Shown here piece by piece: positions 1 to 53,950 of a stretch of 64,000 bases of DNA. Within the stretch, counting starts at the first letter, position 1; every line of letters begins with the position of its first letter. The stretch comes from Sanghuangporus weigelae (lineage: Eukaryota; Basidiomycota; Agaricomycetes; Hymenochaetales; Hymenochaetaceae): the NCBI GenBank assembly GCA_033182465.1, contig CP137324.1:620001-684000 (forward strand), in the 5' to 3' direction. The notes under the pieces are model-generated. The model worked only from the letters and a program-made list of their open reading frames with translations. It had not been told where the DNA came from and searched no databases. A program made the position numbers and the translations under genes.

Positions 1-315
1 ATATCCCGAAGTTCCAGGATGATCCATTTGGATCGCGCTTGACAATCCTCTGCGAGATTAAGAGGCTTTTTGAGGAGTTTAGAAGTAAAGTCGCAGTAAG
101 TCGTTCTGCTTATCTTTTTTATCCTCAGAACCGGTAGCTCATCACGAATCCTCCGTCCCGTGCAGTACCATCGAAGTGTAGGTGTCGACTTTAATAGTCC
201 TGGAGTCGATGTTCTCGCATTTAGTAAAGGCGATATCAGAGTGACGAGGTTACAGCGCCGCGTCGAATGCTTATATCAGGTTGTCTTTACTTATCCGACC
301 CGTAACGATCGATAA
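1..315 (+). CDS. Gene X, copy 1: C-terminal end of an uncharacterised protein (cut by window edge)
   Basis: Only the last two exons are in the window. Codons start at base 3. An intron of about 70 nt (96-165, GTAAGT...GCAG) separates them, and the stop is TAA at 313-315. The identification as coding rests on its clear match to the second copy at 14239-15201: both contain IPKF..., ...SR..IL.E.KRLF..F..KVA, then (after an intron at the same place) ..VDVLAF/..IDVLAF, DIRVTRL and YQV.FTYP just before the stop. About 19 of 31 residues agree in the penultimate exon. I do not recognise the family. The gene is the outer element of the left arm of the inverted duplication and runs tail-to-tail with the FAD gene at 1183-3429. 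Confidence 0.65.
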
Positions 316-1182
316 TGTTGCATTTAAGCCTCGGTTTGGTGGCCCACTAGGTCGTGTTCTGTTTATGCTCCATAATTTATCCACATGCATGTACGTAAAC
401 AATATGTTCATTCAGCATTAGAACGCCCACTATTATGCCTTCCATGTCTTTGCAAACTCTCACCTTTGTATTCGGGGAGAGAATATATGCTTTTTTTTAA
501 TCAATTGGCCTCTATTCCCGCTTCTAGACCGCGATTTACCGATAAGAATTAGACAAGTTGTTTCAGTATTTCAGTCGTTCTTCAGGCTCGAGCTTTCTCT
601 TTCCCCCGCTTGTATTATAACTGTAAGGAAGCTCCGAGAAGTTCAGCGACGCTCCTTTCAAGACATAACGCAATGAACGCAACGTTCGCGCCTCTGTACC
701 CGTGTCACAATAAAAGAGATCTTGGTCTGAACATCAGTAAAGAAACGTACGGTGGAAACCATCGATGCTAGGTCATAAGTCAGACTTCGGAAAGCGTTCT
801 GATCTGTGATTTTAGCTCATCCAACTTTACCAGATGACGTGAGTGGTGGTTCCTTTTGAATTGCTATTGAAGAGACTCTGCTAATTTCTCACTCTGAGAC
901 GGATGTTATATCACTTTTTCATTCGGACGATGTTTAAAGCTTTGCTATTAAATCGGGGATAAATGCACATTTCAAAATAGGACAAAATAGTTGTACATCC
1001 AGAATGAAAGAAGGCAAGCCATATTGGTGACAGCGAATAGAATGGAGCAAATACCCGGGATCGATCAACTGTATGTGCCCAGCATCTTCAAGAGTATAAA
1101 CTACAGAGTGAAAAGGAAATCAAGACGAGCTTGGAGCTGGTCTTATAAGGCTGTAATCTGTGCGTCCGACACTTTTAGACGT
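316..1182. other. Intergenic, no gene seen
   Basis: This stretch lies between the two convergent genes of the left duplication arm. It is AT-rich with short open frames only. The longest (991-1188) begins at TTG and has no recognisable motif. The matching spacer in the right arm (13794-14238) is about half as long, so the arms have diverged here by insertion or deletion. Confidence 0.6.
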
Positions 1183-3429
1183 CTATGAACGGATCAAGCC
1201 AAGTTTTTTGCGTATATGGAAGAGAAGCATCTTCGATAGCATATGGGGCGTTAGCAGTGCGGTGTGTGGTGCCATGAAGAATCGGACTTTGTAAAGCACG
1301 CTGTCTGCCTCCTTATCCTGTTCAGTGATAAGAAGAATTAGCTCCATTGCAATGGGTGCCAAGCCCGAGAGAGGGGGAGGGAATGAAACAATGAAACATA
1401 CCAATCCTGCCATTTCCATGAGGGTCTTTCCGAAACCACCCATCAGCCATTCGTCACTGAGCTTTTCGCCCTTGCAAGGGATCGTAGTGCTAAACTGATA
1501 ATCTACGAAGTTGGTTGAGTGGACAAGCTAGGCTGGGGTATTCATGCCAATCATGCTGACCTGTGGGTTTGGTTCCTTGCCAAACACCTCGGATTTTGTC
1601 CGCGTGTATCACAAAGAAGTCACGACCGAAGTTACGGGGAATCTTCGTTGACTCAGAGATCGGCGAGGACTTCAACATGCTATCCAGAGTCACTGCCCCG
1701 ATTGTAGCTTTGGAACAGCCTTGCCTGTACACACGGTTCAAGATGTATCATGGGACTGGAGATTTAAATCGAGAGAGGTAGACTTACCCATATGTTGGAT
1801 TGGGTCGCTGTACGGCATCTCCGATTGCGATGAAGTTGTGCGGTATGTAAGGAGCCTTTTCATATAGAATCCAAGAAGGAGATGCTGTGCCGAGCGATTA
1901 ATCGGGCCCTTTTCGTCGTATAAAACAAAGCTTACGATATTTTCCTGTGGACACTTCTACCTTGTCACTTTGTTCCATAAGGACGTCAAAAAAGGGGTAA
2001 ATCCAGTCGGGAACCTTTTGGTGATCTTTCTCTAGATCTCTGAACCAGGCTTTGATTTCTGTGACGTCAGATGGTGCCGGCGGTTCGCCCCATCCTCCAA
2101 ACGATGTATCAACTAAAAGCTTTCCCGTTATTGCTGCTCGCAGAAAAGTTATGCATATACTTACTGCGTTCTCCTTCAACCCGGCTAAACATGAATAACT
2201 TCTGCTCTTTTCCGGGAATAGGGAAATAAGTATACATCCAAGGGACATTCTTGTAACCTCCGGGAATAGGTAGACGATCGCGAGCTTCAGGAGGCACGGG
2301 CCATCTAAATCTGATATATTTTTGGTGAGTGTTGTACGAAATCCTCAAGTCATCCCATGAGATCGCGTTGGATGGGGCATAGAGCTGGAGACTATTTGAG
2401 TTGACCGGGTCGGTGGCAATGCGACGAAGCCACTTGAGTCCTGCCTGCGATGCACCTGTACAATCTAGCGTTGTTTTAATTAACGGCGGGTAGAAGCAAA
2501 CAGTACGAGATAAGAATACCAATGACAAGTGTTGCCGGGGTGTCTTCCGTATTACCATCCGGCAAGCGAACAGAAACAGACGAGATAGTCGTCGGATCTC
2601 CGGACGCAGTGTTCAGGCCAGTCACGGTTCCAACCTGAGCGCGAATTCGGTCGGAATAATTCAAGACGAGACGACGGAGTATGCGCTCGTACAACTCGCG
2701 ACTCGCGAAGAAACACTTTCGTCTATTTTCACCGGTGTCTTCTTGACTCGGAGCAGCCATGAAATGACGCCCATGGGCGTGGCAGTTGAGATCATAATCG
2801 GCTATGCTAGAACAGGTTGGATCAGCGATTATTATGATGGCAGGAAAATTGCTTAATCACATTCCATTGGCTTTTATAAACTCGTCACCGACGTTCGGGA
2901 AGTACTTGCTCAGCGCTTCGAGCGCGATAGGGTGGAAGGCTGGTTTCGCATATATCAGTGTATGTGAAAAAACATTTTTATCAGTTACTTACCATGGTGC
3001 GCATTGTACTGAGCAACTCTGGAACGGACGTGCTCTCTGCTATTCTCGATATAGATGCCTTTCTCATCGTAAGTGTTGCTCATCCCTTCTTCGGTCAGTA
3101 CCCAGGTTTCTGGCTCGATGATGAGCACGTTCTCGAAATGGTCAGAAGCAATCAGCGCGGACCACAGTCCAGCGATACTGACACGGAACGTCAGAATATC
3201 TGACAAGCAATATCCAATTTTCATCATACCTTCCGCCACAGACAACCGCTGTTCCGCTCATTCGTTTATCTTCGGGCCTAGCATGCTTTGGTCCAAGATT
3301 ATCGATATCATTGACAACAGTAAACTTGCGAGTGAAGAACTTGTCAAGAAACGATCCAGTTATGCGCCACGCAATGAAGGTAGCAGGAACGGCGAGGGTC
3401 GTCGCAAGTAACTTAGGTGAGATATCCAT
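1183..3429 (-). CDS. FAD-dependent epoxidase/hydroxylase-like oxidoreductase, copy 1
   Basis: A multi-exon gene whose start ATG is at 3427-3429 and whose final exon ends ...KKLGLIRS. It begins with a hydrophobic N-terminus (LLATTLAVPATFIAW) that could anchor it to a membrane. A Rossmann FAD motif (CGGSIAGLWSA, acidic end IIEPE) follows near residues 64-85. A DCTGASQAGLKWL segment comes mid-protein, and a late GD-type FAD ribityl-binding motif region is followed by GCSKATIGAVTLDSML. This architecture is that of the LasC / squalene-epoxidase / aromatic-hydroxylase superfamily. It is not canonical ERG1, whose N-terminal and substrate motifs are absent. Substrate is unknown. Copy 2 at 11539-13793 shares sequence and intron positions, including one that splits the Rossmann motif. 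Some exon junctions near 1750-1900 were not resolved. Confidence 0.8.
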
Positions 3430-3480
3430 GAACGGTCAAGAAATCGTAAAGACGGAAAGTTAGCAAGCACGGACGTTCGC

Positions 3481-3486
3481 TTTATA
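3481..3486 (-). promoter_or_regulatory. TATA-box candidate for FAD gene copy 1
   Basis: TATAAA on the minus strand about 52 bp upstream of the ATG at 3429. Copy 2 has TATAAA 39-44 bp upstream of its own ATG, so the core promoter element appears kept in both duplicates. The rest of 3430-3674 holds no gene. Confidence 0.4.
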
Positions 3487-3674
3487 CGGTCTTACTGTAC
3501 TTGACGACACAAACTCTTTTCTCCTTGTGATGATAAGAAAGGACGAACACTTCAGTCGAGAAGACCCCAACCGAATCAGCTCTCGTACCATCATCAACAT
3601 CTTGAGGCCGCCCATCTCTTGATCAGAGCGGGGATGCGGCCCATTGTATAGAGTAAATGTAGATAGAGTCATTT

Positions 3675-4620
3675 TTAGGATTTCAAATACCAGGGAATTC
3701 GCGCAAAGACTCCTTGTAGGTCTATCTTGCCGGTGATTCTGAAACCGGTGAGTGACCGTCGCAGAAGGCCCCATTCAGCATCAAAAGTAGCAGCTCCTGC
3801 GATATTCATACGCCAGATGTAAGTGATATTTGACATATCTATACTCAAGAAATGCGTCAGAAACGGACTTGATCATACTCGTACTCTCACGTTAAGACTC
3901 CTTTCATCAGATCTAGAGTGTCACTTCAAATGCTTGGTTGTAGACTTCGCCGCATCCGGAAAAATACTCTGCCTTCCCAGGACGTGACGTTATCCACTCA
4001 TCGTGGGCATTTGCAATTACCGTGATATTCGCTGATTAGGCCATCGGCATATTCACGGGCGCCAAAGTATCCGCAATAGTCAATGTATACCTGTTATCAC
4101 GATCAACCATAACTGCTCCAGCTAACATACATATTTCTTCATCTCGCAGGCAATCCCAGCTGCAGTTACGTTGTCCAAGTCAAAGTCTTTTCTGGATGCG
4201 CTCGGTAAAATAAACATATCAGTATGAATCCTCTGGCTCATCATCAAATTGGATTGGGGCGTGCGTTGTTGTCGGAAGAGATTATCCGAGCGTTCAAGGG
4301 CATTTATTTACTCCAACTCATCTTCAACCCGGCCAAAGTGCTTCCAAGCGGTGCAGCATGCATTCATAGATTGCACTGGGAATGCGGAATCCCCATTGCA
4401 TCATAGGGTGAGCACTGGCAAGTGCGCTCGCAACGCAGGAGTTATCCAATGAGAGCATCGGCTCGGGCGTTTCGTCAAGGATTTTCTCAGGGGCTCCACG
4501 AACCTGTATATCAATTCAATAGCCATTTGGACGGATAAAAATAACCTGAAATCTTTTCAACCCAGCATCTCGACGGGCCTGTTGGTTTCTTCTGAAAGGC
4601 CGAGAAATCACAGATTCTTT
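3675..4620 (-). pseudogene. Decayed multi-exon gene of unknown family
   Basis: The minus strand shows protein-like runs that switch frame and are broken by stops. Examples are RFQVRGAPEKILDETPEP (about 4563-4450), DFDLDNVTAAGIACEMKK (about 4185-4135), AGAVMVDRDNRYTLTIAD and ITVIANAHDEWITSRPGK (about 4025-3970), and a possible C-terminus ending IPWYLKS* at 3675. Some GT...AG pairs fit real introns (for example about 4505-4550), but no set of introns restores one frame. The simplest reading is a dead gene. I do not recognise the family, and an intact but unusual gene cannot be fully excluded. It lies between FAD copy 1 and CYP51 and has no counterpart in the right arm. The rest of 4621-5045 shows only scattered fragments. 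Confidence 0.45.
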
Positions 4621-5045
4621 CGATTGATACGTTGGGGTGTAGGTGAGCGACATGTCTCGATATATGCCTTAGTCAACGTTGAACAATGGCGAAGCGACAC
4701 TTTATGGCTTCATGCCAGACGGTTCCAGCTTCCCGATGACTGTTACTCATTCACGCAAATTCTGAAGGGGTGGCTCAGCGAGATCCCCAGTTATTCCCTG
4801 ACTTGAACTGAACAGGCGGAATCGTATGTTTCGGTTCAGCCCCTCGTCACGTATCCATGCAGCTTTATATCGATACTACGACGTCTCTTTCGATCCAGGA
4901 ATGCCGTAATGCGCAAGAATTGCTTAGGAAACCGGGCCATCTTTATGCGTCTATGCTTTTATTATCCAATGCTTCTAGATTGCAAGTAACGTAACAGGAG
5001 AAAATCATATCATTGATGCGTCCAAGGAAGCGTGAGGTAATTCAG

Positions 5046-7118
<2,073 letters not shown>

Positions 7119-7364
7119 CGCTCGCCGACGTGTACAAAGTACGACTTCGAGGTGGTGGGAGATGGTGAGGAGCAGCTCTGGCCTGGGAGCAGTTTACTTA
7201 TTTTTTCGCGCGTCGGGTTCTCAAGCTCAAGGTCAGACCATTTATTTACAACGTCAATATTCATTTCGGCTTTTGCCGTGCTAATCACCATCTTTTTATT
7301 TCCGCGCAATTTTGTCGGACAACATCTGACTGGTTCAGTACACTCAACAGCCAATCAATTTACC
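7119..7364. promoter_or_regulatory. Bidirectional promoter region, CYP51 / nucleolar protein
   Basis: 246 bp separate the two start codons, so both promoters must lie here. The CYP51 side contains CTCACCATCTCCCACCACC on the minus strand, which loosely resembles SREBP-type sites (ATCACCCCAC), but the match is weak and I do not claim it as a binding site. Confidence 0.4.
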
Positions 7365-9032
7365 ATGTTCAAACGAGTCACCAAAAAGCAGAAGAAACGA
7401 GAGCAAGAAGAGGAGCTCGGTCTTGATGATGATACGAGACAGATGTTCGGGCTGCAGGACACCGACAGCGACGAATCTTCCTCACAGTCGAACTCGGAAT
7501 CGGACGATGAACTAGATCGCGGCGAGGCCGAAGCAGACATAAGAACAGAATGGCTTGCAGCTGAGGGCTCGAGCTCAGAGGACGAGAATGATAGCGATGA
7601 AGAGGGGCTCGATCTCGAGAGCATAGATGACGACCCGCCTATATCTCTCGCCGAAGCTGTGAAGAACCCTATTTATCACATTTCGTCGGAGAAGCTCAAC
7701 GATGAGCGCGCATGCATAACATGTCCCAAGAAGCTACTGAAGAATGAAAAGATGGTGGAACTGCATCTTTCATCTGCGGTAAGGTGGTCGAATCCTTGAT
7801 TCGTGTATTTATTATCTACACATATTGATTGTTATTCATGATTTCACGTTGCCGGATTTCTGTAGGCCCATGTCAGACGATTCAAAAAATTCTGCGAATT
7901 GGCGAAAAGGCCGGATAACCGTTCAGAAGATCCCAGACGTATCTCGGCCGCCATCTCGAAGAATCCGACGGCAGTCACAAGTGCAGAAGGATTATCGAAA
8001 CGCGGTCTAAAGCGAGTAAGTATCGCACTCTCACGACCCGCAAAATTTTTTGACTTCCCCAACTCAATACAATCTTTCTTTTTATATCTTCACCAGAAAC
8101 AAAAACTCGAAACGATCAAACGAAAACGCGAAACGACGAAACATATCATCGAGCGTAAAAAGCGGAAACACGCTAAGAAAGAGGTTGAGGCTGAGACTGG
8201 GACAGGCAAAAAGGCGCAAAGTGCGGGAAAGAAGAGAGAGAGCGACGTCGGCACGAGCAAAAGCAAACCATCAATTTCTCGATCCGACAAACAAGCCTCC
8301 GAACGACCGCGAAAGAGGCGCAAGGTTCTGGATTCTGACGGACATGAGGCTACTCGTGAAAATGCCGATGATGACCACGGCGGTGATAGCACGAGAACCG
8401 GAGAGCAGACGGAAATGATGGTGGGTGCAACAGCGGAGTCTAAGCCACCAAAGATGAAGACGAAGGTAATCAAGGTTAAAGACAAAAGTAAAAGCATTGC
8501 CAAAGCCAAAACTAGTCCCGGGAGCGAGAACAGCGGGAACCACGCCGAAGCACAAGCCACCGACTCAACGTCGACACGGCGACAGAAGGATAGGACCAAG
8601 ACTGTCAGGTTCTTTGAAGACGACGGTGCAATCGACGATAACAGTGAAGACGCTCGCACAACGAAGAAACGCGATTTGAGGAGATTAAAGACGAAAGGGA
8701 GAATTGGTCGAGAAGGTGCCGGGAAATTCGCTAAGCTCTCCAATACACGACCCGCGAAAGACAAAAGTCAACGAAAATCACAGACGCAGGGAGTCACGGC
8801 CCGCAATTCCTTCCTTCCAAAGAAGTCGGCTCGCTATTTTGATGAACCGGAGGATGGAACATCAGTCGGGCCGAAGAAATCCTCCATGAAGAAGCAGCTT
8901 AAGAAGACGAAGTCGGAAGCGAAAGGCTTGAAGCGTAACAACTCGGCTAAGGGCGATGGAGAGGACCGACTACAGAAGGCAGAAAGCAAATGGAGAGAAA
9001 AGGCAGGAGACGATCTTGTTATTTTCGACTGA
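7365..9032 (+). CDS. Lysine-rich, probably nucleolar protein with a U1-type zinc finger
   Basis: Three exons, with introns starting at the GTAAGG after ...LSSA and the GTAAGT after ...KRGLKR. The N-terminus (MFKRVTKKQKKR) leads into a Ser/Asp/Glu-rich acidic stretch. A C-x2-C-x13-H-x5-H finger follows (CITC...HLSSAAH), whose second half is built across the first intron. After it come ISKNPTAVTSAEGLSKRGLKR and then a long Lys/Arg-rich tail with many basic nuclear-localisation-like clusters (RKKRKHAKK, RPRKRRK). Acid-plus-basic low-complexity composition and one U1/matrin-like finger are typical of ribosome-biogenesis factors. I cannot name the orthologue, and nucleolar location is an inference from composition. 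Confidence 0.8.
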
Positions 9033-9208
9033 ATGTAAAATTTGCAGGTCCGCGTATCTCGTCCTTGTCGTCACTGAATTACTGAAATGTCTTTCATCCA
9101 TTCCGTTGGTCCGATAAAAAAAATGAAGTCCATGAAAAAGTGAAGTAAGAATGAACAGGGGAAGAAATACAATAACCAAAATGAGAAATGCGAGATAGAA
9201 AAACAAAT

Positions 9209-11056
9209 CTATGCGAGACTGCGTAATACAGCATCAGTCTTTTCGATAACCTAGACGCCGGAAGAAGATTCGAAGCAAGGAGCAGAAGCATCGATTAGCG
9301 CCACATTACAACTGGAGTAACCTATTCCAACCATACCTGGTGTATATCAGGCCGTTGAGCTGGGTCAGGCTTCAGCATGAAGTCAATGAGATCCCGCAAG
9401 CCCTGCGAATACGCGGAATCTCGCGGATGTTTATATGCAGCATTCATAACTGCCATAGCAATCGACCCTCCTTGTTCAGTCGTTGCTTGTGTCTCAAAGG
9501 GGGAATGGAGATACGCAAGAGCGTAAAGTGTACATCCAAGTGACTAGGTGAGAACATCAGCTATGCATACGCACGTGAATGATTCAATACCAGCTGAAAC
9601 AACGAACCCATATGTCAACTTTTTCGTCAAGTGTAATGCCAGTTTTCACATCAAATAGCTCCGGTGCACGATAAGCCATCGTACTCTGCTCGGCAGCTAT
9701 GTCCTGGATTGTAGTAAGTCAACATGTCAGCAGCTGAACTCCGTGAACGGCAGAAACTTACCTGTTGCAAAAGCGCCTGTTGCCGGTTTTCAATCTTTAT
9801 GCGAGCCTTGACTGCGCTACCGAAGTCCATTAGGATCGGAGTGCCGTCGTCAGCAATCATGACATTCCTTCCCAATTAACATAAGTCGATCAAACTGAAA
9901 CGGTTGTTAAAATAGATACTCTTACCCAGGCTTCATATCTCTATGTGCGTATGGGACAATCTCCATTTGACTCGGATCCCCGTCATTGAGCTCTTGATGT
10001 GCTAACTCCTCGTCGCCATCGAATACGACATCTCCTTCATCTTCTATCGCATGTTCAGTTACTAACGGAACACTGGACCCGCCGTCGTTCCCATAACTGT
10101 ATCCACCTTCCCCATCGCCTTCAGGATGTGGCAGCAAATCGTCTTCATCCTCATCGTCGCTTCCATGATGTACTACTGGTCTACTAAGTTTTCCGTTCTG
10201 TTTTGTTCGTGGCCGGGCTGATGCGGGAATACTTTCTGTCCGGTGTTGAGCTGATGTCGATGCTTGAGTCTGAGAAGACTTGGTGGCACGGAAGGTATGC
10301 ATCGCGCGGACGGCTTCACACGTTCCGCGGAACAGACGGAGCATTTCAGCCTCCGAGAAGTGCGTCCCATTTATGAGGTGTGCATTGATCGCGTCTTGCA
10401 AGTTTCCTCGCTGGGAAACAGATGAGAAGATATGGACATTGATATGCAGTAAGAAGCACACCTTATAAAGAGGTAAGAAGAGATAAACTATCTTTCCCTC
10501 CCCGTCAGCATCTTGGACGACCGCAGAATCCTAAGAAAATTGAGCTGACAGAGACAACATTCAAGGCACGACCAACATACATAGATACGGATAATGTTTG
10601 GGTGCCTGCAGCGTTCTCAGCGAATGGAGACTGATGGCAGTAAGGATACATACTTGAAGCGCCTATAGGCCTCTACTTCTCGCATTGCTTCCTTGACGCC
10701 TTCTGAACCCGTGGGGCAGCGGATCTTCTTGAGAGCAAACTGACGCTAGAACTACGATTGAATGACGCTCTGTATGTTTCAGGCGGTACCACAAGACCTA
10801 CGCCACTAAGTTCATCTTGAACAAGGTATACAAATGAGAATCCACCCTCCCCGAGAACCTTGACGATTTTGACTAGCAGATAAAGTGTCAGCTGGCGAGC
10901 AGGCGGACAGCCAAGCACAAGTGACGAACATGTTCGTCCGTTGATTTTTACTTTTGCCGATTGGTGACATAGACAAGAGGTGAATGCATACAATGCGTCT
11001 TTTGCGCGCTCCTTTAGACCGTCGAGAGACTGTAGAAGTTGAGGGGGGAAGGCCAT
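9209..11056 (-). CDS. ENV7: NAK-family Ser/Thr kinase, STK16 / Env7 orthologue
   Basis: Golgi/vacuole membrane kinase family. The N-terminus has a cysteine pair (CLCHQ), the usual site of acylation in STK16/Env7. It is followed by the glycine loop LGEGGFSFVYLV, the ALKKIRC lysine region and the EAxAL-type helix. The catalytic loop HRDMKPGN and DFGSA follow, with a late activation segment (MAYRAPELFD), DIWSLGCTLYAL and the C-lobe. The last intron precedes VIEKTDAVLRSLA*, ending at 9209. Between helix alphaE (AVRAMHTF) and HRDMKPG there is a roughly 100-residue insertion rich in Ser, Gly, Asp and Glu, longer than in animal STK16. Start ATG is at 11054-11056. It sits at the right end of the duplication spacer, divergent from FAD copy 2. 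Confidence 0.9.
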
Positions 11057-11538
11057 GGGTGGTGCTGGTGAGCTGGTGTACGAAGTGTGAGAACGTCACG
11101 CGTTAGAGAACGCGAGAGGCACCGGCCATCGGATCAGCCGCGCTCCGGATTTTGTTTGAACGGCGCCGCGTGCCGGGGACTCTTTTTTTCCTTCTTTACA
11201 TACAACGGTCACTGAGTCCATGTTTCAACGTTTCTTGACACGGGTGACCATGATTTGTAGTATTTGCCAAACTCAAGTTATCGTAGTTCCATCTGCATGT
11301 AATATGATGGACTACGTCTGATTCTGATACTGCTGTTGCGCTCGGCGCTAGACGCGGACAACTGGTGTAATTTGATGATTCCAAATTGCCCTTTCTACAG
11401 GTAAAGTCTCGGTCAGGGTCTTTTCAATTATGTTTTCCCGTTTCTCGTCATCAAAGAATAATATATTGATTCCGGGTCCGGACGCGACCGTTCATATAAA
11501 GAAGCACCTTGGCCTACCCACTTTTCTACCTTGCAGCC
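11057..11538. promoter_or_regulatory. Divergent promoter region with TATA box, STK16 / FAD copy 2
   Basis: 482 bp between two divergent start codons with no gene inside. TATAAA at 11495-11500 lies 39-44 bp upstream of the FAD copy 2 ATG. GC-rich sequence near 11110-11185 is close to the kinase start. Confidence 0.45.
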
Positions 11539-13793
11539 ATGGATTACTCTCCACAGCTGGCTGCTACAGCCCTTGCCCTCCCCGTTACGTTCGTTGCATG
11601 GCGATCACTTGGCTCATTCCTTGATAAATCTTTCACTCGCAAATTCACTGTTCTACACGACCTAGATAAGCTTGGCCCAGCGCATGCTAGACCTGACGAG
11701 AAACGGATGAGAGGAACAGCTGTTATTTGTGGCGGAAGGTATGTAGACGTCGAGCTTTGCGCGTGTAAAGTCGAGATAATCTGACTATCCAATAGTATTG
11801 CCGGTCTTTGGTCTGCGCTTGTCGCTGCCGACCACTTCGAGAACGTGCTCATTATCGAGCCAGAAGCATGGGTATTCACAGAAGAAGGAAGAAGCAACAC
11901 ATATGATGAAAAGGGCGTTTTTATCGAGAATAGCAGAGAGCACGTCCGTTCAAGAGTTGCTCAGTACAATGCCCATCACGGTAAGTAAATTTAGCGCCGA
12001 ATGTGTCACTATGGCACTCCGATCTCATGAGACGACAGTCTTCCAGCCCATTGCTCTGGATGTGCTGAGGAAATACTTCCCGAACATCGATGACGAGATT
12101 CGAAGAGCTAACGGAATGTAATCAAGTCTTTTTGCTACTCACATCTCACCATTGCTGATTTATTGTGATTCAGCATATCCGATTACGAGCTTAATTGCCA
12201 CTGCCACGGACGTCATTTTATGGCCTTGCCCAGACAAGATTTTCCGGATGGAAAGCAGCCAAAATGTTTCTTCATGTCCCGCGAGCTATACGAGCGCTTA
12301 CTTCGCCGCCTCGTCCTCAACTATTCTGATCGTATTCGCACAAAAATTGGAACCGTAACCAATCTAAACACCGACCCCGCCGATCCGATGACTATCTCGT
12401 CCGTTTCTGTTCGCTTACCAGATGGCGATACGGAGGACATACCAGCAACGCTCGTCATTGGTATTCTTTCTCTCACAAAATTTGTAAATCTATCACTGTT
12501 GGCTGACGAAGATCAAATTAGACTGTACTGGCGGGACGCAAGCTGGACTTAAGTGGCTTCGCCGCATTGCGACCGACCCCATGAATTCGGAAGGTCTTCG
12601 ACGCTATACCCCATCGGGAGCGATACCATGGGATGACCTGAGACTTGCGTACAACACGGCTCAGAAGTACATCCGATTTAGGTGGCATGTCCCGGAAGAA
12701 GCGCGGGGGCGCTTACCTATTCCCGGAGGTTACAATAATGTCCCTTGGGTGTATACGTATTTCCCGGTCCCTGGGAAAGAACAGAAGCTATTTATGTTCA
12801 GTCGGATTGAAGGACATCGCAGTAAGTATAGTATCTTTTCTAATGAGGATAATGGTAATAACAGCGTTCTTAGTTGATATGTCCTTTGGAGGATGGGGTG
12901 AGCCGCCGCTCCCGATGGACATTTCGAAGATCCCGGACTGGTTCAGGGACTTAGGCAAAGACCATCATAAACCTCCCGACTGGGTCTATCCTTTCGTGGA
13001 AATTTTGATGGAGCAGAAGGACAAGGTCGAAATTGCGACAGGCAGATATCGTAAATCCAATCTTACTTATTTCAAAGGAATTGCTTCTAACTCCTGAGCA
13101 TAGCGTCGCTTTCTTGGGTTCGATACGAAAAGGCTCCTTATGTACCACATAACTTTATTGCTATTGGAGATTCTGTTTTGCAGCCTAATCCCACTTTTGG
13201 GTGAGTGTTTTTGTCTGCAACGAAGACCCATATCTTAACGTGATGTCATAGTCAAGGCTGTTCAAAAGCTACCATCGGGGCAGTCGCATTAGATGCCATG
13301 CTGAAGACGCTGCCGTTCGCTGAATTAACAAAGATACCACCTAGTTTTGGAAGAGACTTCTTCACAATGCATGCGGACAAAATCCAGAGTGTATGGGATG
13401 GTACTAAACCCATAGGTCGGCCTTCTAGCCTACATTAAATGAGAAAGTGATAATAACACCTACATTCTAGATTACCAATTCCCTACGACGACTCCGAGCA
13501 AAGGCGAGAAGCTCAGTGACGAATGGCTGATGGGTGGGCTCGGGAATGTTGCCATGGAGTTAGCAGGTCTGGTATGTTATATTTCCACAGGCTATTATTC
13601 CTTTCTACTTTTCTGTTTGAGAATGGTGAATATTCAATGTTTTCTTTCCTCCATGCAGGATAAGGAAGTGGACGCTGTTCTTTATAAAGTCCGTTTCTTC
13701 ATGGAGCCACAGACGGCATTGATGACGCCGTATATAACGTCGAAGATCTTGTTGTTCCAGCTCCGCAAGAAGCTCGGCTTGATGCGGTCGTAG
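11539..13793 (+). CDS. FAD-dependent epoxidase/hydroxylase-like oxidoreductase, copy 2
   Basis: Paralogue of 1183-3429 in opposite orientation. The start ATG at 11539 gives MDYSPQLAATALALPV, a hydrophobic N-terminal segment. The Rossmann motif CGGSIAGLWSA is at about residues 64-74, with its Ser codon split by an intron, and IIEPE follows. Later come SRELYERLLRRLVLNYSDR, DCTGGTQAGLKWLRR, IPGGYNNVPWVYTYFP and SFGGWGEPPLP. The FAD motif IGDSVLQPNPTFG-QGCSKA is followed by a C-terminus ending KKLGLMRS. All signature elements of the LasC/squalene-epoxidase-like flavoprotein superfamily look intact. Aligned stretches of the two copies match at roughly three quarters of positions or better by eye. 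Substrate is unknown; the CYP51 neighbour suggests sterols or triterpenoids, as inference only. Confidence 0.85.
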
Positions 13794-14238
13794 GTGTTGC
13801 TCGAAGAAAAATCTCGGGCTTCTCATTTTTTGCGGATTTATGATACGATGATCTTGGATACATACACTTTGTTCTACTTACACAGCTTATTCTTCTACTT
13901 ATCTGGTTCTCGCTTTGGGATGTATTTCTCATCAGCAAGCATCATTCTGTGTCATAAACGAGCCTTAGACAATAAAGTCACTCAGTCATTTCCTATTCCG
14001 TCGTGACTGGTCTAACTTGGCCTATGCCGGGCGTCATACATACTTACATAAGGAAGGAATATCCGTCTATATCGATTAAGGAATAAAGAAAGCCGAAAGG
14101 GTGATGGATGATTAAGCGGACAAGTAAAGCCGGGCCATTGATCTTCAGATAAGAGTAAAAAGCGAGAATTCTAGTTCAGTGGTGCGCGCGATTAGTCCAG
14201 AGCCACCGAGTCACCATAACGAAACCATATAAGGAACA
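13794..14238. other. Intergenic between convergent genes, no gene seen
   Basis: Shared 3' region of FAD copy 2 and gene X copy 2. No convincing open frame, repeat or RNA gene was found. Confidence 0.6.
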
Positions 14239-15201
14239 CTAATCCTCGACGCGAGCCGGGTAGGTGAACATCACTTGGTAGGTCATTTCCGACCTCCTCT
14301 CGAGTCTTGTCACCCGTATGTCGTTGTCTCCAAAGGCGAGAACGTCGATCGCGGGTCTGCTTGCGACCTCGCTCTTTCTGCGTCTTTCCTGCGATGTACG
14401 ATGAGCAGCTGGTTTTTGGATGGGGGCATGGGAAAAGAACGTACCGCGACTTTACCCTTAAAATCCAAGAAGAGCCGTTTAACCTCTTTCAAAATGTTTC
14501 TCCTTGAGTCAAAAGGCTTCTCCCGGAACTTGGGAATGTCGACACGCGTACTGAATACTCCATACGATTCATACCCCTTCCACTATAAAGAGACGCAACT
14601 CAGTCTACAGCTGCTCTTCTCGGAGGCTTTAATATGTGCTTACCTGAAAGCATATAACGATATGTATAGAAGGGAGATTCAATGGCTCATTCGAGACTGC
14701 GTCGGGAGTACCAACGCAGCATCCGACGTGCGGATACGTTCCTAGATAAACCGTGTCTTCCAGTGGGTAGTTCACGCGTTCGTCTGCACGAAGCCTCGGA
14801 GGGTAGAGTGTGTTCTGAGGGACATTAATGTTTTTGATCCCAGGTGCGGGCCCGCTGAAAAGCTTCCGAGCAACCCCACTGGGCCTACTCGGAGAGGCAT
14901 ACGGGCTAGAAACACGGCGGATTCTGTCGCTCGGGCTCCTCAAAGAGCTCGAGCTTGGAGAAGGTCTCTTGATAAACATGAGATCCTCTGGATTCCCCTT
15001 TCGGGGAGGAGTGGCTTGTAAAGACCGACTCGGAGGAGACGTCGTTGGACGAGTGGGTGGTGGAGTTTTCATTTCGGCGCGTAGCGCATCATAATTAATG
15101 CGACCTTCGCCTTTGTACCTAACACCCTTCGGGCGCAAAGGCATGATGGGATAAGGAGAGCTTGCGATCTCCCGCTCGGTGTCACTCTGCCTTCTGGGCA
15201 T
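14239..15201 (-). CDS. Gene X, copy 2: uncharacterised basidiomycete protein
   Basis: Three exons (15201-14644, 14582-14445, 14388-14239), all in phase 0, give a protein of 281 residues from ATG at 15201. An upstream TTG at 15216 is not a likely start. The N-terminal half is Pro/Ser/Arg-rich and probably disordered (MPRRQSDTEREIASSPYP; TPPPTRPTTSPPSRS). The C-terminal third is conserved with copy 1 at the window's left edge: FSTRVDIPKF, SRRNILKEVKRLFLDF, AIDVLAFGDNDIRVTRL and YQVMFTYPARVED*. The alternating hydrophobic pattern there suggests a small folded domain. I do not recognise the family. It is convergent with FAD copy 2, as copy 1 is with FAD copy 1, so the pair has been duplicated together. 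Confidence 0.8.
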
Positions 15202-15936
15202 TCTCGGTTTTATCAAGAAGATGAGAGGTGTCTAAGGAAGGTAGTGATGCGGATTCGAGGACGATGCAAGCTGTAGCCAGACAGCCAAGATCGACTCAAA
15301 GGTGTCAATGAAGATGGGAATATGAAGGTGGGATGCGATGAATGGTGAAGAGAAAGTATGCGAAAGCAGCCGCATATTTATACTAACAGGATGTGGCCGG
15401 CCACAGTACCTTAAGTCAAATAACAGCGGCTGCTCTTTGGCTTAGAATGCACACCGCAACGTGAAGATGGGCATTGTGGCCTGGTCCAAGTGAAACAGAA
15501 CGTAAGCGTCGAATCTCATAGAAGGATAGAATGGCGACACCATTGAATCGTATAGGCATCAACTAAAGCCAGAATGAAACTCCTATACTCGGCTTACTAC
15601 GAGGCGTAAATCAGAGTAACGGATGTGTTCTTTAAGAGGTGGTTTCAAAGCCGGTGTCTTTCGACGATATTGACCATAGGTTTGTTTGATCATTATTGTG
15701 CTGCATGAGCAGCTTTTTCCGTCTTAAAAAGGCTCAAAATCAGGAAATGATAGAGTATTTATCGATCGCCTGAATCATGTAGTCAGCTGAGCTATGCTGA
15801 AACAAATTGTCAAAGTGCTTCGTGTTATTTGTCAATTTCATGCAGAACGACCGCGTTTTTACAGAAATAATGATCTGCCAGTAAAGAGGCATTATATATA
15901 AAGCCGTAATTCGAGCTTCAGAATTGCTTTCATACC
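15202..15936. other. Intergenic, no gene seen
   Basis: The upstream region of gene X copy 2 and 3' flank of the DUF427 gene. No open frame with protein-like composition, no clear terminal repeats and no tRNA boxes were seen. Confidence 0.6.
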
Positions 15937-16888
15937 TTAGAGACGGTCAAGCATTTTCTTTGGCTGGAGGCCACCCGAGAAGATTGACTGAGGCTGTTCC
16001 TGCTTCTCGCCATCAACTGAGACGTTGACCTTTTCATCATAAAAGGCGACAAGTCCTTTGATGTCAATGCATTCTGCGAGTGGAGTACGATACCACCAAA
16101 CAACGTTCTCCGCTAGCTTTCCGCTGTCGGGTAAAAGTACTGAGTAGTATGACGCTATTCCCTGCTCTCAATACCACATCAGCGTCGCGAGCTTTAAAGG
16201 TGTGCTAATAGACCAGACCTTGTATGGACACTCCGTTGTTAATTTCGTTGGCTCAAGAAGATCCATTCTACAATCTGTCTTAGGAATGTAAGTCCGAACA
16301 GGAAGACCCGTCTCGAATAACAGACGCGGTCTTTCCGAGTTCGCAACTTCCACGCCGTCAATTTCCACGCGGATGTGCCTCGAAGACTGAAGAACTTCAA
16401 TCCTCTGGAATAAACACAAAAAGATTATTTCGGGTACAACTTCGTTCATATAAGCACAAACCAACCTTGTACGGATCTTTAGGATGCACGAAGATCTGTT
16501 CATCCTCCTCGAACCAGGCATCCATCGATGCAAAGATAATTTTAGATAAACCTGAAAGATCGCCTTCGTCTTTGTAAGTAACGACCGCCTTTTCCGCGAC
16601 TTTCTCGCCGACGACGATATCAAAAACTTCTTTTTGAGCGGAATCCGAAAATGAAGGTCTCAGGTATTCTTTTTTAATGTCTGTGGTCGAAAAGAAATAC
16701 GTCGGATAATACGGGTGCTCCCATCTTTCAAAACTGTCAGGAAATGCTACAAGAGTCTGCTCGTCGATTATTACATGTACGTACACGAGCTTAGCTGCCC
16801 TCGTGTCCACGATCCATTTACCTCCAAATAACACCCTCACACGCTTGAGCGAGGGTTCGATGTGCGGCTTGCTGAAAGGCGGGGACAT
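15937..16888 (-). CDS. Tandem DUF427-domain protein
   Basis: Two DUF427-type beta-rich modules follow each other. Module one has RVRVLFGGKWIVDTRAAKLV ... YPTYFF. Module two has HIRVEIDGVEVANSERPRLL ... GLPVRTYIPKTDC ... CPYKGIASYYSV ... VWWYRTPLAECIDIKGLVAFY. The end is QPKKMLDRL* at 15937. Motif order and the CPYKG..YYSV / AFY blocks are diagnostic of DUF427, whose biochemical function is unknown to me. The start ATG at 16886-16888 is the first good one. The intron between CPYK and GIASYY must begin GTCTGG, an atypical donor, and ends GAGCAG. The next gene is divergent, with 238 bp between starts. Confidence 0.85.
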
Positions 16889-17022
16889 GGGAGTTGACTA
16901 TAAGGCGAGACGAGAGGAACAGATTGATCATCCCAGTGACTCGGGTTGGTCATGCGGGTGAGACTGAGGCGGAGGCGGAAAGAATAAAGTGAAGTCATCT
17001 TACGTAAAGATTAAAATGTAGA

Positions 17023-19441: not shown

Positions 19442-19586
19442 AGTCCTGGTCTTGTTGCTGTTTATTCGCTGTTTATTCGCTTTGTCGTTTTGTACTAATA
19501 TTGCTGTTGTAATTTGCTATCGTTACGTGCACCAAAATAATTCTTGCTCCTACTCTTGGAATGACCATTTGTAGGTAGAGCGACTC

Positions 19587-20456: not shown

Positions 20457-20464
20457 GGTCGTTA

Positions 20465-20850
20465 CAGCGTGTTCAGAAAACCTTGACAGTGTCAACTTTT
20501 CATATATATTTTTTGCTCAGGGTCCTGCCTTATGGGAAAACCTCGGCTGCCAATTTTTGTGTGCAGTTATGCTATTACACTTCCCACCACAGCTTATCAT
20601 CCCTCTTGCAATACTGGCAGAGACAAGCATTGCAAGCCATGTTGGTATTAAGTAGGTCATGCACTGTGCAGGACACAGAGTTCCCAGTCTGAATTGTATT
20701 ATATTGTGTCTCTTAAACATAGTAGATAGTGTCGATCATTCGGGTTCACGCGGAAGTTGTGAGTGTGCGGCTTTCCCAAACCGGACAGCCGAGGCTAAGC
20801 GAAAAAAATATATGAAAAGTTGACACTGTCAAGGTTTTCTGAACACGCTG
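20465..20850. mobile_element. MITE 1, TA-flanked, Tc1/mariner-like ends
   Basis: 386 bp flanked by TA on both sides (20463-20464 and 20851-20852). The terminal inverted repeats begin CAGCGTGTTCAGAAAACCTT and continue for about 50 bp with a few mismatches. No transposase is encoded. TA target duplication and a CAG start fit the Tc1/mariner superfamily. The near-perfect ends suggest fairly recent insertion. Confidence 0.85.
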
Positions 20851-20856
20851 TAAGTA

Positions 20857-21476
20857 AGGTAGAGGAAGTATAAACTCGACTAGCCGTGACGCGACTCGCA
20901 TGACCCTGACCTGCCTCATTTGGCATCACAACACAACACTTTAATTCAGCCTCCCACAACACACAAACACAAATTTGGCCTCCGTACATCTCTGCAGATT
21001 GTAAATACCTACAGATGTATGGTTTTATTTTACAAAAATATTAAGAATTAGTCCTCCAATTAAGGAAATAAGTTTTTATATTCTAAATGGCTCAGAACTT
21101 ATTTTCCAACATCCTGGTGAAGTTTAAGAAAAAATTGAAATTTTGACCCAAGAATTTTGCCGCTTCCCGGAAGGATCCGAATTACTAATATGCCCAAATA
21201 TAGTAATATTATCTATGACTAACACGTATTAGTAATAACTAATTCTGGCTGGCTTCGTGGGTGATGGGAATAGAGAGTCAGACTGAAAACAAGTCTTTTC
21301 AGAGACCTCCAGACACAGCAGCAGACTACAGCTGAAGTCTCAGTGGTTTTCAAGTATCCGGGAAATTTTAACTCGAGATTTTTGCCGCTAGGGACCTTCC
21401 TAATTGGGTTAGATCAGGGTTTCTCAGGGACATCAGTCACATGTGACAGCTAGTCGACTTTATACTTCCTCTACCT
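20857..21476. mobile_element. MITE 2, TA-flanked, different terminal repeats
   Basis: 620 bp flanked by TA (20855-20856 and 21477-21478). The ends read AGGTAGAGGAAGTATAAA then (C/G)TCGACTAGC, giving roughly 28 bp of inverted repeat with one mismatch. The interior is AT-rich and non-coding. It begins just two bases after the TA of MITE 1. The ends are unrelated to those of MITE 1, so these are two families inserted side by side. Confidence 0.8.
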
Positions 21477-22486
21477 TAGGAAGGATCCGTCAACGTCGAT
21501 CGCAGCGATCTTGTGGTCGATCCTCCAGTTATGGCATGACCAGATTCGCAAGTGCAAATTAATTTAAATATTCACAAGGAAATTAACAGCCAAAGTTAGC
21601 ACAGCAAATTCTGCGTCCAAAGTTACTCATTCATAGAATATTATGGTACGGCCATCTTATCGCCTTCTTGAATCCAAAACCTGCTCAAGGAATTAATACG
21701 CATTTGATGTTATTCTCAAGGTCTAGTCTCGTACTCTTTTCAGTCTTCACACCTCCCGCTTCCATTAGATGGAATCTGAAAGTCTCGTTCCTTGTGAAGA
21801 TTCTTCTCGGTTGTACAGCGAAAACTCTAGTGTTATAGGTATCATTGGGGGAGCATCGCCCGGCAACGTCCTCTAACTTTGGTTATCGCAGATCGGACCC
21901 ACACAGATCCAGGACAATAGAGTTTCATGACGATCGAGTCAAGATAATGACTGAAAGGAGTTGACAATGATTATTAGGACAGGCATATCAATCTGACTCC
22001 AGCTTCATCGTGGAGAAGCATCAGACCCTGATCCTCATCCGGCCAAGTGAGTGGAGATGGTTACCAGACGATAGAGAAATCCACGAGACTTTACGTCGAA
22101 TCTTATTCAAAATTAAATTCCAGGGAAGCAATGAGCATTCGTTATTATCATGGATCCGAGCGAAAGCAGTACAGGATCATGATGACTGGTGAAAGAGCTC
22201 CTTCTGGACAGATACCCACGATAGCCGTAGCAGAGCGTAGACAAAGACGATTTGTTTGGTAACGAGCACGTGATCGTGCTCGTGGTAGTAGATCAGCCTC
22301 GCGGCATCTGAGAAGTCGTGCCTTCCCTTCCTCTGCCCCATCACATCCCCCACTTCCCTCAGGCCACCATCGCGACGCGTTTTTAGCTCAAGCGCGTTGT
22401 GGTCTCTCGAAAAGCTTCGTTCATTCTTTCTGCTTTTTCTCTCTTATCCATCTAGGACTCTTTTCGTCATCTAGCATATACGATCA
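21477..22486. other. Upstream region of the 22487 gene; possible small spliced gene
   Basis: About 1 kb without a firm gene. A plus-strand open stretch ends ERRQRRFVW* at 22262 and contains AMSIRYYHGSERKQYRIMM. A good intron (GTGAGTGGAG...AATTCCAG, about 22047-22123) would join HPAK to EAMSIRYY. I could not connect this to an upstream ATG in one frame, so it is listed as a possibility only (about 21768-22262). Confidence 0.25.
22262..22283. promoter_or_regulatory. Inverted-repeat promoter motif ACGAGCACG-TGAT-CGTGCTCGT
   Basis: Perfect 9-bp arms around the same TGAT centre as the motif at 17023-17038, again including CACGTG. It lies about 205-225 bp upstream of the ATG at 22487. Arms differ from the other copy but stay complementary, which argues for selection on the palindrome. 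Confidence 0.45.
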
Positions 22487-32212: not shown

Positions 32213-32469
32213 GTTACGGGCTACATTTATTACTTACCAGTTAAATATTCGTAGAATTCGCAACTATGTGAATTTACAACTCAATTGCACATTACTCTCT
32301 ATCATCTGCACGGAATTTCCGATTGGATAAGCCCAAGTTCAGGCTCACTGTTCCAAACGTTTTGTCTTCGCCATGTAATTCAGAAAAAGTCATAAACAAG
32401 TCACGGGATCCAGTGCACAGATTGGCAGCATTGGCTGCCACTTTATGCACTGGATGACGATGACAAGAG

Positions 32470-33535
32470 ATGCTTCTGCGCAGCAAATTACCAAGCTTAC
32501 GCATAGGTGATTCGACACTGTTATTGTCGCCATCGCGAGCAAGTGCGATCTCCATTGCCTTATATACACGTAGGACCACGCGTCTCAATCATTCGAAGGT
32601 CGCACGTTGCTTTCCATCAACTTCTCTCCGCCCGTATAACTACGCTTCGCATCTCCACCAGCGAGACTTGTCAACCACTGCACAACTGAGAAACGAGAAC
32701 GCAGAGACAAACTTGAAGATGGGTGAAGGTTTCTACAGCCTAAAGACCGATCTGCCAAGCGGACAGGTCTACGATTTCGAACAGTTGAAGGGGAAGGTCG
32801 TTCTCATCGTCAACGTCGCTTCTAAGTGGTACGTCTCATTCATGGTATCTATCGAAGATGCTGAAGAAGAATGTGTTGGTATAGTGGGTTTACACCGCAA
32901 TACAAGGGTCTGGAAGCGCTGTACCAGAAGCACAAGGATAAGGGATTCATCATCCTTGGATTCCCATGCAACCAGGTGAGCTGTCGTTCGTTCACTTCTC
33001 TGAATCGCATCAGCCTTCACGCCTGTCCTCGTCTCGTGCTGCTTCGTACTTACATTGATGGTTATGCGCGTAGTTTGGCGGGCAAGAACCAGGCTCGGAC
33101 GCTGAGATTGCGCAGTTCTGCGAGCTGAACCATGGCGTGACGTTCCCGCTTATGAAGAAGTCCGACGTGAATGGTGATAACACTAACGAGGTGCGATGAA
33201 ATGTCCTCCTTTTCCATTGCATGGCTTTCGTCAAACTGAACGCGCATATGTAGGTGTACAAATGGCTGAAGAACGAGAAGTCGGGTATTCTCGGCTTGAC
33301 GCGTATTAAGGTTCGTTTCGTGTATCCGTATGCGTGTGAATGATTCTGACTCTGAACTGGACGGGCTGTGTAGTGGAATTTTGAGAAGTTCTTGATCGAC
33401 CGAAACGGGAAAGTCGTGCACCGTTGGGCATCGACAACGTCTCCTGAGTCGATTGACGCTGAAGTAAGCAAGGTCCTTCCGTGCAAAGTACTGAACTGAA
33501 ATTACTGCGATTTGTAGATTCAGAAGTTGCTCTAA
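32470..33535 (+). CDS. GPX: Cysteine glutathione peroxidase / thioredoxin-dependent peroxidase
   Basis: Reduces peroxides using thioredoxin or glutathione. Core motifs are [17 protein letters not shown] (peroxidatic Cys, not Sec), GFPCNQFGGQEPG (Gln and resolving-Cys region) and [18 protein letters not shown] (Trp/Asn of the tetrad), ending EIQKLL* at 33535. The catalytic Cys codon is split by the first intron (TG | 32829-32884 | T). Two starts are possible. ATG 32470 gives a basic, Arg/Ser/Thr-rich leader of 83 residues that looks like a mitochondrial presequence. ATG 32719 ([13 protein letters not shown]) gives a cytosolic enzyme. Fungal GPX genes often yield both forms. Confidence 0.92.
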
Positions 33536-39176: not shown

Positions 39177-40753
39177 TTAAGATCCCAAGACTATTCGCTC
39201 CTCTACGACGAGGACCTCTTGTCGTTCTGGGTAAATCGCAGTCACGATTTCGCGCTCTCTCCATTGGCGACTTCTACCCGATCCTGCGACAGCAGTTGAT
39301 GGAGGTGTGAGGGTATATTGGACGGAGAGCGCAGAGAGTACACCTCCGTATGCGTGTGAGATACCAGTATCGATGATGATGACTTTACCATTGCAGCGAG
39401 AAGTTATAGCCTTGATAAGCAGGAAATCATTAATAAACCGGCATATGAGTCTACGGAAACGGACGACGAACCGTGAAGTTTGGCGTATGGCCCATGATCA
39501 ATCTCCTAACCCCCGTTGTTCTCAATACCTCGCCGACTTCAGGACATACTGCATGTTCGGGTTGTAATGCCCACCCTCGGTACCACAGCGGTCCCTCCTC
39601 CACATATAAGCTCTTCTCTTCTTCACTTGCATCGTGCGGTAGGCCCGCGTACGGGTGTGGCGGGTGTGGTGGAGGGAACGGCCGAGTTTGTAAGCGCCGC
39701 AGGAGCGTTGCTCCGAGGTCATTGATTGCAGAGGGGTAGGGGGATAAATGAGCGTAGGAAGGCGAGAGGCCACCATGCACGAAGCTCAAGTACGCAGTTC
39801 CTAAGGGATCATCCAATTGCTCTTCTCCAAAGTCCCGATTTGACACAAAGTCAATGGATGAATGCCCCAAAGACGGATCATATGAAGCGGAAGAAGGGAA
39901 GGGAGAGTCAGGACCCAGAGGCGGATATAAGGCTACGCGAGAGGTGATGCTGTAGTTAGCTGCCCAAGCACGTCCTATTCGTCCTGTTTGGAGCATCTTT
40001 TGGCGGGCGGCGACTGAGCCGAAGGTGGCTATTTCCTTTGCTTCGACGTATCTGCGGCGAAGAGTCGTTAGAGTCTCGAGAGGAATGGGAAAGAATCTGC
40101 GCACCTCCAGTCGGCTAATGGAACGAAAGTTGTATTAATATGGTGAAGTCAATAGAGCAGATAATAAAGAAGAGCATGATACGAACCTAGTAGATTCATC
40201 CATTCGTGATTCCCCAAGTGCGAGACGACGTCCCCGCCAGCGGCACGCGCTTGTGACCGAAGCCGCTCCATCCAGAGAAACAGTTTGATGGTATCAAGTC
40301 CTCTGTGCATCCGCATGCACCAAGACGTCCATGCCATCAGTTCAGGATCCATAAGTGTCTCAGCGGAATGTTAGAGAGGAGAAAAACAATAGCAATTCAC
40401 CGATCAATAATGTCGCCGGTTTGGACGAACAAATCCACCTTGCCCGACCAATTACCCTCCTCATCGACGACATCCGACATTTGCAAAACGCGGAGCGCGT
40501 TCGGGTAGTCCCCGTGCAAGTCTCCTACTGCAACTATCCTGCGTGTATACTGTGCTTCTTCAGATTCAGACTCTGTACTGAACACGCTCTGCGCCGTTAC
40601 GTCATCGTTCTGAACATCATACTGAACTTCATCATCGGTGGGTGTTGGGGAGTGACGAATGGGAGCCCCGAAAGTGCTTTGTCTGAAAGCGACGAATACT
40701 GCCGCGAGGAGGAGGACGGCTGGGAGGAATCTGCTGAGACGTATTCGAGGCAT
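39177..40753 (-). CDS. Shewanella-like PPP-family metallophosphatase, membrane-anchored
   Basis: Calcineurin-like phosphoesterase with all PPP metal motifs: VAVGDLHGDYPNA (GDxHG), VQTGDIIDRG (GDxxDRG), SHLGNHEWMNL (GNHE), FVHGGLSPSY and MGHTPNF. The N-terminus MPRIRLSRFLPAVLLLAAVFVAF is a signal anchor or signal peptide, so the enzyme is probably in the secretory pathway or at a membrane. The domain order and the long loop between GNHE and HGGLSP fit the Shewanella-like (SLP) group found in fungi and plants. C-terminal end VVEERIVLGS* at 39177. A MITE lies about 120 bp upstream of the start codon. Confidence 0.88.
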
Positions 40754-40805
40754 CCTGAGGTGCTATAACTAGTATAAGTACAAGACAAAAAGATGATGTT
40801 CGACA

Positions 40806-40815: not shown

Positions 40816-40873
40816 CAGGATTCACAACCTAGAACTTATAGAAGAGACGAGACTTTCAAGGCCTTTTTACTTA

Positions 40874-41541
40874 CAGTCATTTACCGGTCCTTTAAACAGT
40901 ACCGTTCCTTTGAACACTCGAATTTTCTCCCTCAATTCTTCTTTCCTTGTCACGAAAAAAATCACACAGATGCAGAGAATATGTACCAATTATAATACCA
41001 AATTTCAGAAGATTTGAGTGAGGCGTTCAGTGTAGAGAAATTATGCACTGGCTAATTTGGTTGTATTTGGTTGAGTTTAACTTGCAACAATTGCTCTTGA
41101 GCTTGTTCTGGCCCATTTACATAGAAGATAGCTGTACATATCACTAAAGTATTGCCATGGGTGCGTCTGTGCAAAGTTTGAAGAGAAAACAGTTACTCTA
41201 CGAATTAATGCAGGGGAAACAAACAGAAAGTGTGACAGATGGGAGGAGGGATTTTTACATGCTAAGATCGGCGGTCATATTTTGCCGTACCGAGAACTAG
41301 CACCGTGACGGCAATTTCTAATGTCACATGGTGTTCAAAGGAGCGGTTTTTGTGACATTCTTGCATCTTTTTTCTTTCACCTCTAATAATTTTTCCTGTA
41401 CAATTTACAGCTTTGAAAAATTAGTAAATGTTGCCCTCGTTAAGGGCTATCAGAATATGTACTTGAAAGTTATAAATCTTCTGTGTGGTGAACTGGGTGA
41501 GTGCATCTGTATTGGGTGTTCAAAGGACCGGTAAATGACTG
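40874..41541. mobile_element. MITE 4, TA-flanked
   Basis: 668 bp flanked by TA (40872-40873 and 41542-41543). Ends read CAGTCATTTACCGGTCCTTT then (A/G)AACA, about 25 bp with one mismatch. Sub-terminal copies of a related block are found in inverted order inside (ACCGTTCCTTTGAACAC at about 40901 and its complement at about 41331). The interior is AT-rich and has no transposase. TA duplication and CAG start suggest Tc1/mariner type. Confidence 0.8.
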
Positions 41542-41543
41542 TA

Positions 41544-53877: not shown

Positions 53878-53950
53878 GGCCGATGAGTAGGAGATGACTG
53901 GGAGGATGCTGCATGGTTGTGGGGAGAGGCAGAGTTATGCGGAGACATTC

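Follow-up and report, generated by a model that had tools for sequence, protein, structure and literature searches.

A mirrored two-gene unit on both sides of CYP51 in Sanghuangporus weigelae, probably an old inverted duplication

Introduction

How does a fungal CYP51 gene come to lie in the middle of a palindrome of two gene pairs, and does this position matter for CYP51 itself? The question is raised by a stretch of 64,000 nucleotides from the basidiomycete Sanghuangporus weigelae (assembly GCA_033182465.1, contig CP137324.1, positions 620,001 to 684,000 of the forward strand), which was analyzed computationally and is called the window hereafter. At its left end a flavin monooxygenase-like gene and a neighboring gene, here named FAD and X, are present on both sides of a block with CYP51 (FAD-A and X-A to the left, FAD-B and X-B to the right). 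The arrangement is probably the remnant of an old inverted segmental duplication of this two-gene unit, the copies of which bracket the CYP51 block.

Two gene pairs in mirror image

From left to right the gene order, obtained from the reading of the window and from spliced gene models, is palindromic: X> <FAD-A ... FAD-B> <X-B. Here, X and FAD stand tail to tail and in equal relative orientation at both ends of the spacer. FAD-A (1183-3429, minus strand) and FAD-B (11539-13793, plus strand) are both modeled with 10 exons and 574 amino acids, of which 430 are identical in a gapless alignment. The second gene is complete in the model of X-B (14239-15201, minus strand, 281 amino acids in 3 exons, with a Ser/Pro-rich N-terminal half), and X-A (3-315, plus strand, exons 3-95 and 166-315) contributes its last 80 codons and the stop codon, the remainder lying to the left of the window. 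Over the exon models, 44 of the 80 amino acids of this visible part are identical to X-B, and tblastn aligned the two exon pieces at identities of 58.8% and 68.6%, with a joint E value of 1.2e-16. Each antiparallel arm therefore carries two homologous genes, as represented by the FAD pair and the X pair.

Shared intron positions within both pairs had been claimed in an earlier note on this DNA. For the FAD genes this holds completely, since all nine introns (51-87 nt) are common to both copies in place and phase. Such short introns and the gene density fit a filamentous basidiomycete. The last exon of X has 150 nt in both copies and the single visible intron lies at an equal position in phase 0; because X-A is cut by the start of the window, the claim rests for this pair on that one intron.

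The FAD genes enclose a spacer of 8109 bp (3430-11538), which contains a CYP51-type cytochrome P450, a lysine-rich protein and a protein kinase. The P450 gene occupies approximately 5046-7118 on the minus strand, with bounds set by eye from the reading frames. A partial reading of 450 amino acids matched the Pfam family p450 (1.9e-61), the best match in the PDB is CYP51B (4.9e-138), and the 28 distinct sequences matched there at E <= 1e-60 all bear the name 14-alpha demethylase or CYP51. The predicted identity as CYP51 is sound. Among 295 fungal species, 180 have one Cyp51 and 100 have two according to an excerpt of PMC9635630. Thus, the two-gene unit occurring twice in opposite orientation, and the 8.1-kb spacer with CYP51 between the copies, are both as the earlier note had described them.

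The mirror image is also visible at the level of DNA. A self-comparison of the window by blastn (E <= 1e-3, dust on) aligned the FAD arms as a single antiparallel match of 2298 columns (69.8% identity, E 0.0), and the only other self-matches were three short inverted pairs, which measure 27-59 columns and lie at 20.4-21.5 kb and 40.9-41.5 kb. Because of its stronger divergence, the X pair does not appear in this comparison of DNA. In a repeat search, 9 of the 11 inverted pairs within positions 1-16500 link FAD-A with FAD-B (109-318 nt, 73-84% complementary), and the remaining two are a pair of 48 nt between the X genes and one of 28 nt elsewhere. At a length of at least 60 nt the identical nine pairs were recovered from the whole window, in which no direct repeat family of that length was detected. 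Short tandem arrays are limited to two within positions 1-22000 (8097-8143 and 19457-19481), and the window contains no additional FAD or X copy, all other tblastn matches having E values of 0.28 or worse. Among the papers listed in the literature searches, no title or beginning of an abstract describes this layout. The mirror-image layout is real, and the observation of the earlier note is partly confirmed and largely right.

The similarity of the arms extends beyond the coding sequence of FAD. A segment 90-145 nt before the ATG of FAD-A (3519-3574, minus strand) aligns over 56 columns with one 78-130 nt before the ATG of FAD-B (11409-11461, plus strand), and none of 2000 random segments of the window attained its local score of 18 in either direction. 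Since this segment is conserved, the stretch that was duplicated started upstream of the FAD ATG. It has been kept despite strongly diverged synonymous sites in FAD and represents a candidate for a shared promoter element or for a conserved 5' leader element.

Divergence and selective constraint

The coding sequences of the FAD genes are identical at 74.6% of the nucleotides, with 82%, 89%, and 53% at the first, second and third codon position, respectively. Three methods gave a nonsynonymous divergence (dN) of 0.155-0.162 and a synonymous divergence (dS) of 1.16-1.46, with dN/dS at 0.11-0.13; bootstrapping of the NG86 estimate yielded 1.12-2.14 for dS and 0.076-0.144 for dN/dS (3rd to 98th of 100 replicates). 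At fourfold degenerate sites, 92 of 196 are identical. Both FAD copies have open coding sequences and are under purifying selection, and the duplication is old with strongly diverged arms. For the X pair dN amounts to 0.44 and dS is not computable. A faint similarity is left in part of the FAD introns, where the observed score was reached by none of 200 shuffles each for introns 3 and 5 and by 11, 12, and 16 of 200 for introns 1, 2, and 7, respectively.

Origin of the arrangement

The simplest reading is that a two-gene unit was duplicated once, because both pairs are homologous, their relative orientation matches and introns are shared. The ancestral unit would have consisted of X and a convergent flavin monooxygenase-like gene, together with a minimum of about 145 bp in front of the FAD gene. 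This unit would have been duplicated once in opposite orientation, and the copies would now bracket the 8.1 kb with CYP51 and two other genes. X and FAD presumably moved jointly in one event, the bracketing of CYP51 would be incidental, and both FAD genes may have been retained either as dosage copies or as sub-functionalized enzymes.

Several observations weigh against this reading. The X proteins are more diverged than the FAD proteins, so the two pairs need not share one age. No clear similarity is left in FAD introns 4, 6, 8, and 9, where the observed score was reached by 45, 31, 147, and 74 of 200 shuffles, respectively. Furthermore, the two sides show no similarity in the DNA that separates FAD from X (42 of 200 shuffles attained the local score of 13), and for the 200-nt flanks in this interval the scores were reached by 160 and 904 of 1000. 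Nothing in the intergenic DNA therefore bridges the two genes of the unit, and for this reason their joint duplication is an inference. Such a lack of similarity is expected at this divergence; homology through intergenic DNA is a trait of young duplications and is not required of old ones.

The locus offers a clear example of an old inverted two-gene duplication, with a palindrome that is still visible now that fewer than half of the fourfold sites remain identical. If the layout is conserved across related fungi, it could serve as a micro-synteny marker around CYP51.

Alternative readings

The strongest competitor of a single inverted duplication is an origin in two steps, in which a tandem duplication of X and FAD was followed either by an inversion of one unit or by an insertion that placed the CYP51 block between FAD genes standing head to head. 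Tandem duplications are common, the final layout would be identical, and no result obtained here separates the two routes. This origin requires an extra step, however, and the window holds neither a repeat of at least 60 nt besides the FAD arms nor, within positions 1-22000, more than the two short tandem arrays mentioned above. It is considered possible, at clearly lower probability than the origin in one step.

It is unlikely that the pairs are chance neighbors, that is, two ancient members of a family that has expanded, each of which happens to lie beside an X-like gene. Such fungi may have a large FAD family, and the stronger divergence of X would fit. A tblastn search with FAD-B matched 58 of 72,556 plasmid records, 39 of them from Streptomyces, and the identity to the bacterial and archaeal plasmid sequences ranges from 21.4 to 24.4% among the 20 of the 58 records listed. 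Against this range stand the 75% identity between FAD-A and FAD-B and the full set of shared introns. A second homologous neighbor in mirrored orientation would also hardly arise by chance.

Slightly less probable still is a symmetric module centered on CYP51, in which the FAD pair would be co-regulated with CYP51 and would act in a common pathway of sterol or triterpenoid oxidation. Here, this common role and the co-regulation would be the reason why FAD genes with a shared conserved upstream element are kept on both sides of CYP51.

A further idea, put forward in the earlier note, was that the arrangement can drive an inversion of the spacer or a change in the copy number of CYP51. The inverted orientation and the 8.1-kb spacer fit an inversion. 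For yeast, a section of a review (PMC8072546) describes that a break can be repaired between inverted repeats when no more than 33 bp of homology flank it on each side, and that this repair is robust without Rad51; in view of this, rare events at the longest exact match between FAD-A and FAD-B, which has 30 nt, are conceivable. Long near-identical arms are absent, however, as identity amounts to 69.8% over the FAD genes and the coding arms differ at 25% of their positions. Such strong divergence together with the 30-nt longest match makes the arms poor substrates for recombination. In yeast, single-strand annealing is less than 50% efficient already at 3% divergence (same section of PMC8072546). 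In mouse cells, the loss of MLH1 led to more deletions between repeats diverged by 1% and 3%, as stated in a passage of PMC9881173.

Gene conversion between the FAD copies has left no significant tract. Among the 408 conserved codons other than Met and Trp, 216 are identical, and 5000 shuffles revealed no significant clustering of these identical synonymous codons, neither in the densest stretch of 15 codons (P 0.12) nor in the longest run (P 0.26). The two copies are most alike in exon 2, where 36 of 54 conserved codons are identical; this exon was not flagged by the shuffle tests. Moreover, because the arms are inverted, a simple crossover on a single chromatid would flip the spacer and leave the copy number of CYP51 unchanged. 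It is unlikely that the arms recombine at a notable rate now, and a palindrome acting as an active switch, by inversion or by copy-number change, is very improbable. The earlier interpretation is thus supported in its duplication part and not in the mechanism proposed for CYP51, and on present evidence the layout has no bearing on the copy number of the azole target.

Finally, the joining of two alleles of one region in opposite orientation during assembly, to which dikaryotic fungi are prone, has a negligible probability, since a coding divergence of 25%, a dS greater than 1 and intergenic DNA that cannot be aligned far exceed allelic differences and no spacer gene has a second copy in the window (self-blastn, E <= 1e-3).

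Affiliation of the duplicated genes

A profile built from FAD-A and FAD-B matched MonCI (5.1e-6) and Lsd18 (1.1e-4) over the whole sequence in the PDB, where the single stretches of the MonCI alignment are not significant by themselves (best i-Evalue 0.91). MonCI and Lsd18 (LasC) are FAD-dependent polyether epoxidases, and the likeness to them is one of profile. The alignment to MonCI spans the FAD-binding start, the region "VIDCTG/VIDATG" and the region "IGD...NP.YGQG/YGHG". Unlike MonCI and Lsd18, the fungal proteins have, as judged by eye, a hydrophobic N-terminus. Pfam returned nothing at its cut-off for the FAD proteins, the best sub-threshold match being FAD_oxidored, and NCBIfam nothing close to cut-off. 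In bacterial and archaeal genome contigs 227 pattern stretches were retrieved with the FAD pair and 144 in viral contigs, none of which was confirmed in either set. "Flavin monooxygenase of the MonCI/Lsd18 kind" is therefore used as a working name, and the proteins may catalyze an epoxidation, as suggested by this resemblance.

X-B gave no match in Pfam and NCBIfam, where the query copy contained one wrong residue, and a single chance-level match in the PDB (E 0.59). By these comparisons, X is assigned to no known family.

Genes and gap of the spacer

Besides CYP51, the spacer contains the gene of a lysine-rich protein of about 499 amino acids with an acidic N-terminal part (7365-9032, plus strand, exons joined by eye), which the earlier note had labeled a nucleolar protein. 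Pfam revealed no significant family for it; zf-C2H2_2 remained under the cut-off with an E value of 0.025. The protein kinase gene (approximately 9294-11057, minus strand), labeled STK16 in the earlier note, was recognized by a match to Pkinase (9.2e-8) in the piece 9325-9543, and its larger piece 9925-10530 had no match in Pfam.

Between FAD-A and CYP51 lies a gap of 1.6 kb (3430-5040) without a recognizable gene, in which the earlier note had placed a dead gene. From 3430-5060, 55 six-frame pieces of at least 22 amino acids were obtained. Seven of the 55, all from the minus strand, were submitted to Pfam, and none reached the curated cut-off (weak matches at E 0.04 and 0.2). The full set of 55 was also aligned to the window, without complexity filtering and with matches starting within 3300-5200 excluded. 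Only weak matches resulted, and the best of them (E 0.002 over 14 residues and E 0.004 over 66 columns) are taken as chance. With no recognizable homology of the seven pieces in Pfam or of the 55 in the window, the dead gene finds no support, and it is neither shown nor excluded. A third or decayed FAD/X unit was considered for the gap as well and was rejected, since tblastn with FAD-A, FAD-B, and X-B against the window (E up to 10) gave only a 14-residue match there (E 2.6).

Mining for clusters of CYP51 inhibitors is mentioned in a passage of PMC10734572. A corresponding self-resistance reading of the present CYP51 was weakly tested: no biosynthetic core was noticed in the window, which was viewed without a gene-by-gene scan.

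Other features of the window

Pfam identified DUF427 (16400-16897, minus strand), a metallophosphatase (40400-40762, minus strand), a trehalase (43563-44429), an arrestin-like protein (53092-53934, minus strand) and proteasome/cyclosome repeats (61055-61765, minus strand), as well as a glutathione peroxidase below the cut-off (32464-32976). The piece 55832-56329 had no match in Pfam. No RNA gene was found by Rfam at gathering scores and no tRNA by ARAGORN.

Two arms of 59 nt (20462-20520 and 20795-20853) are inverted and 94.9% identical, measure 392 bp end to end and carry, as seen by eye, TA at both outer ends. This looks like a young element of the miniature inverted-repeat transposable element (MITE) type. 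Adjoining it is a second pair of inverted arms (20855-20909 and 21424-21478, 82.5%, 624 bp end to end), possibly also a MITE. A further inverted match of 27 nt (40872-40898 and 41517-41543) is 96.3% identical.

Comparison with known systems

Among the rearrangements known from eukaryotic genomes are inverted segmental duplications of small gene blocks. The present locus resembles them in its opposite copies, shared introns, purifying selection and ordinary divergence. It differs in that the copies are separated by unrelated genes, CYP51 among them, and in that the second gene is far more diverged than the first.

A copy-number route at a CYP51 locus is known from the amplification of CYP51B in Trichophyton indotineae (PMC9211412 and PMC10648874), in which extra copies and repeats of a 2,404-bp sequence are involved. 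In S. weigelae, by contrast, CYP51 lies outside the repeated unit, and the arms are inverted and diverged by 25%.

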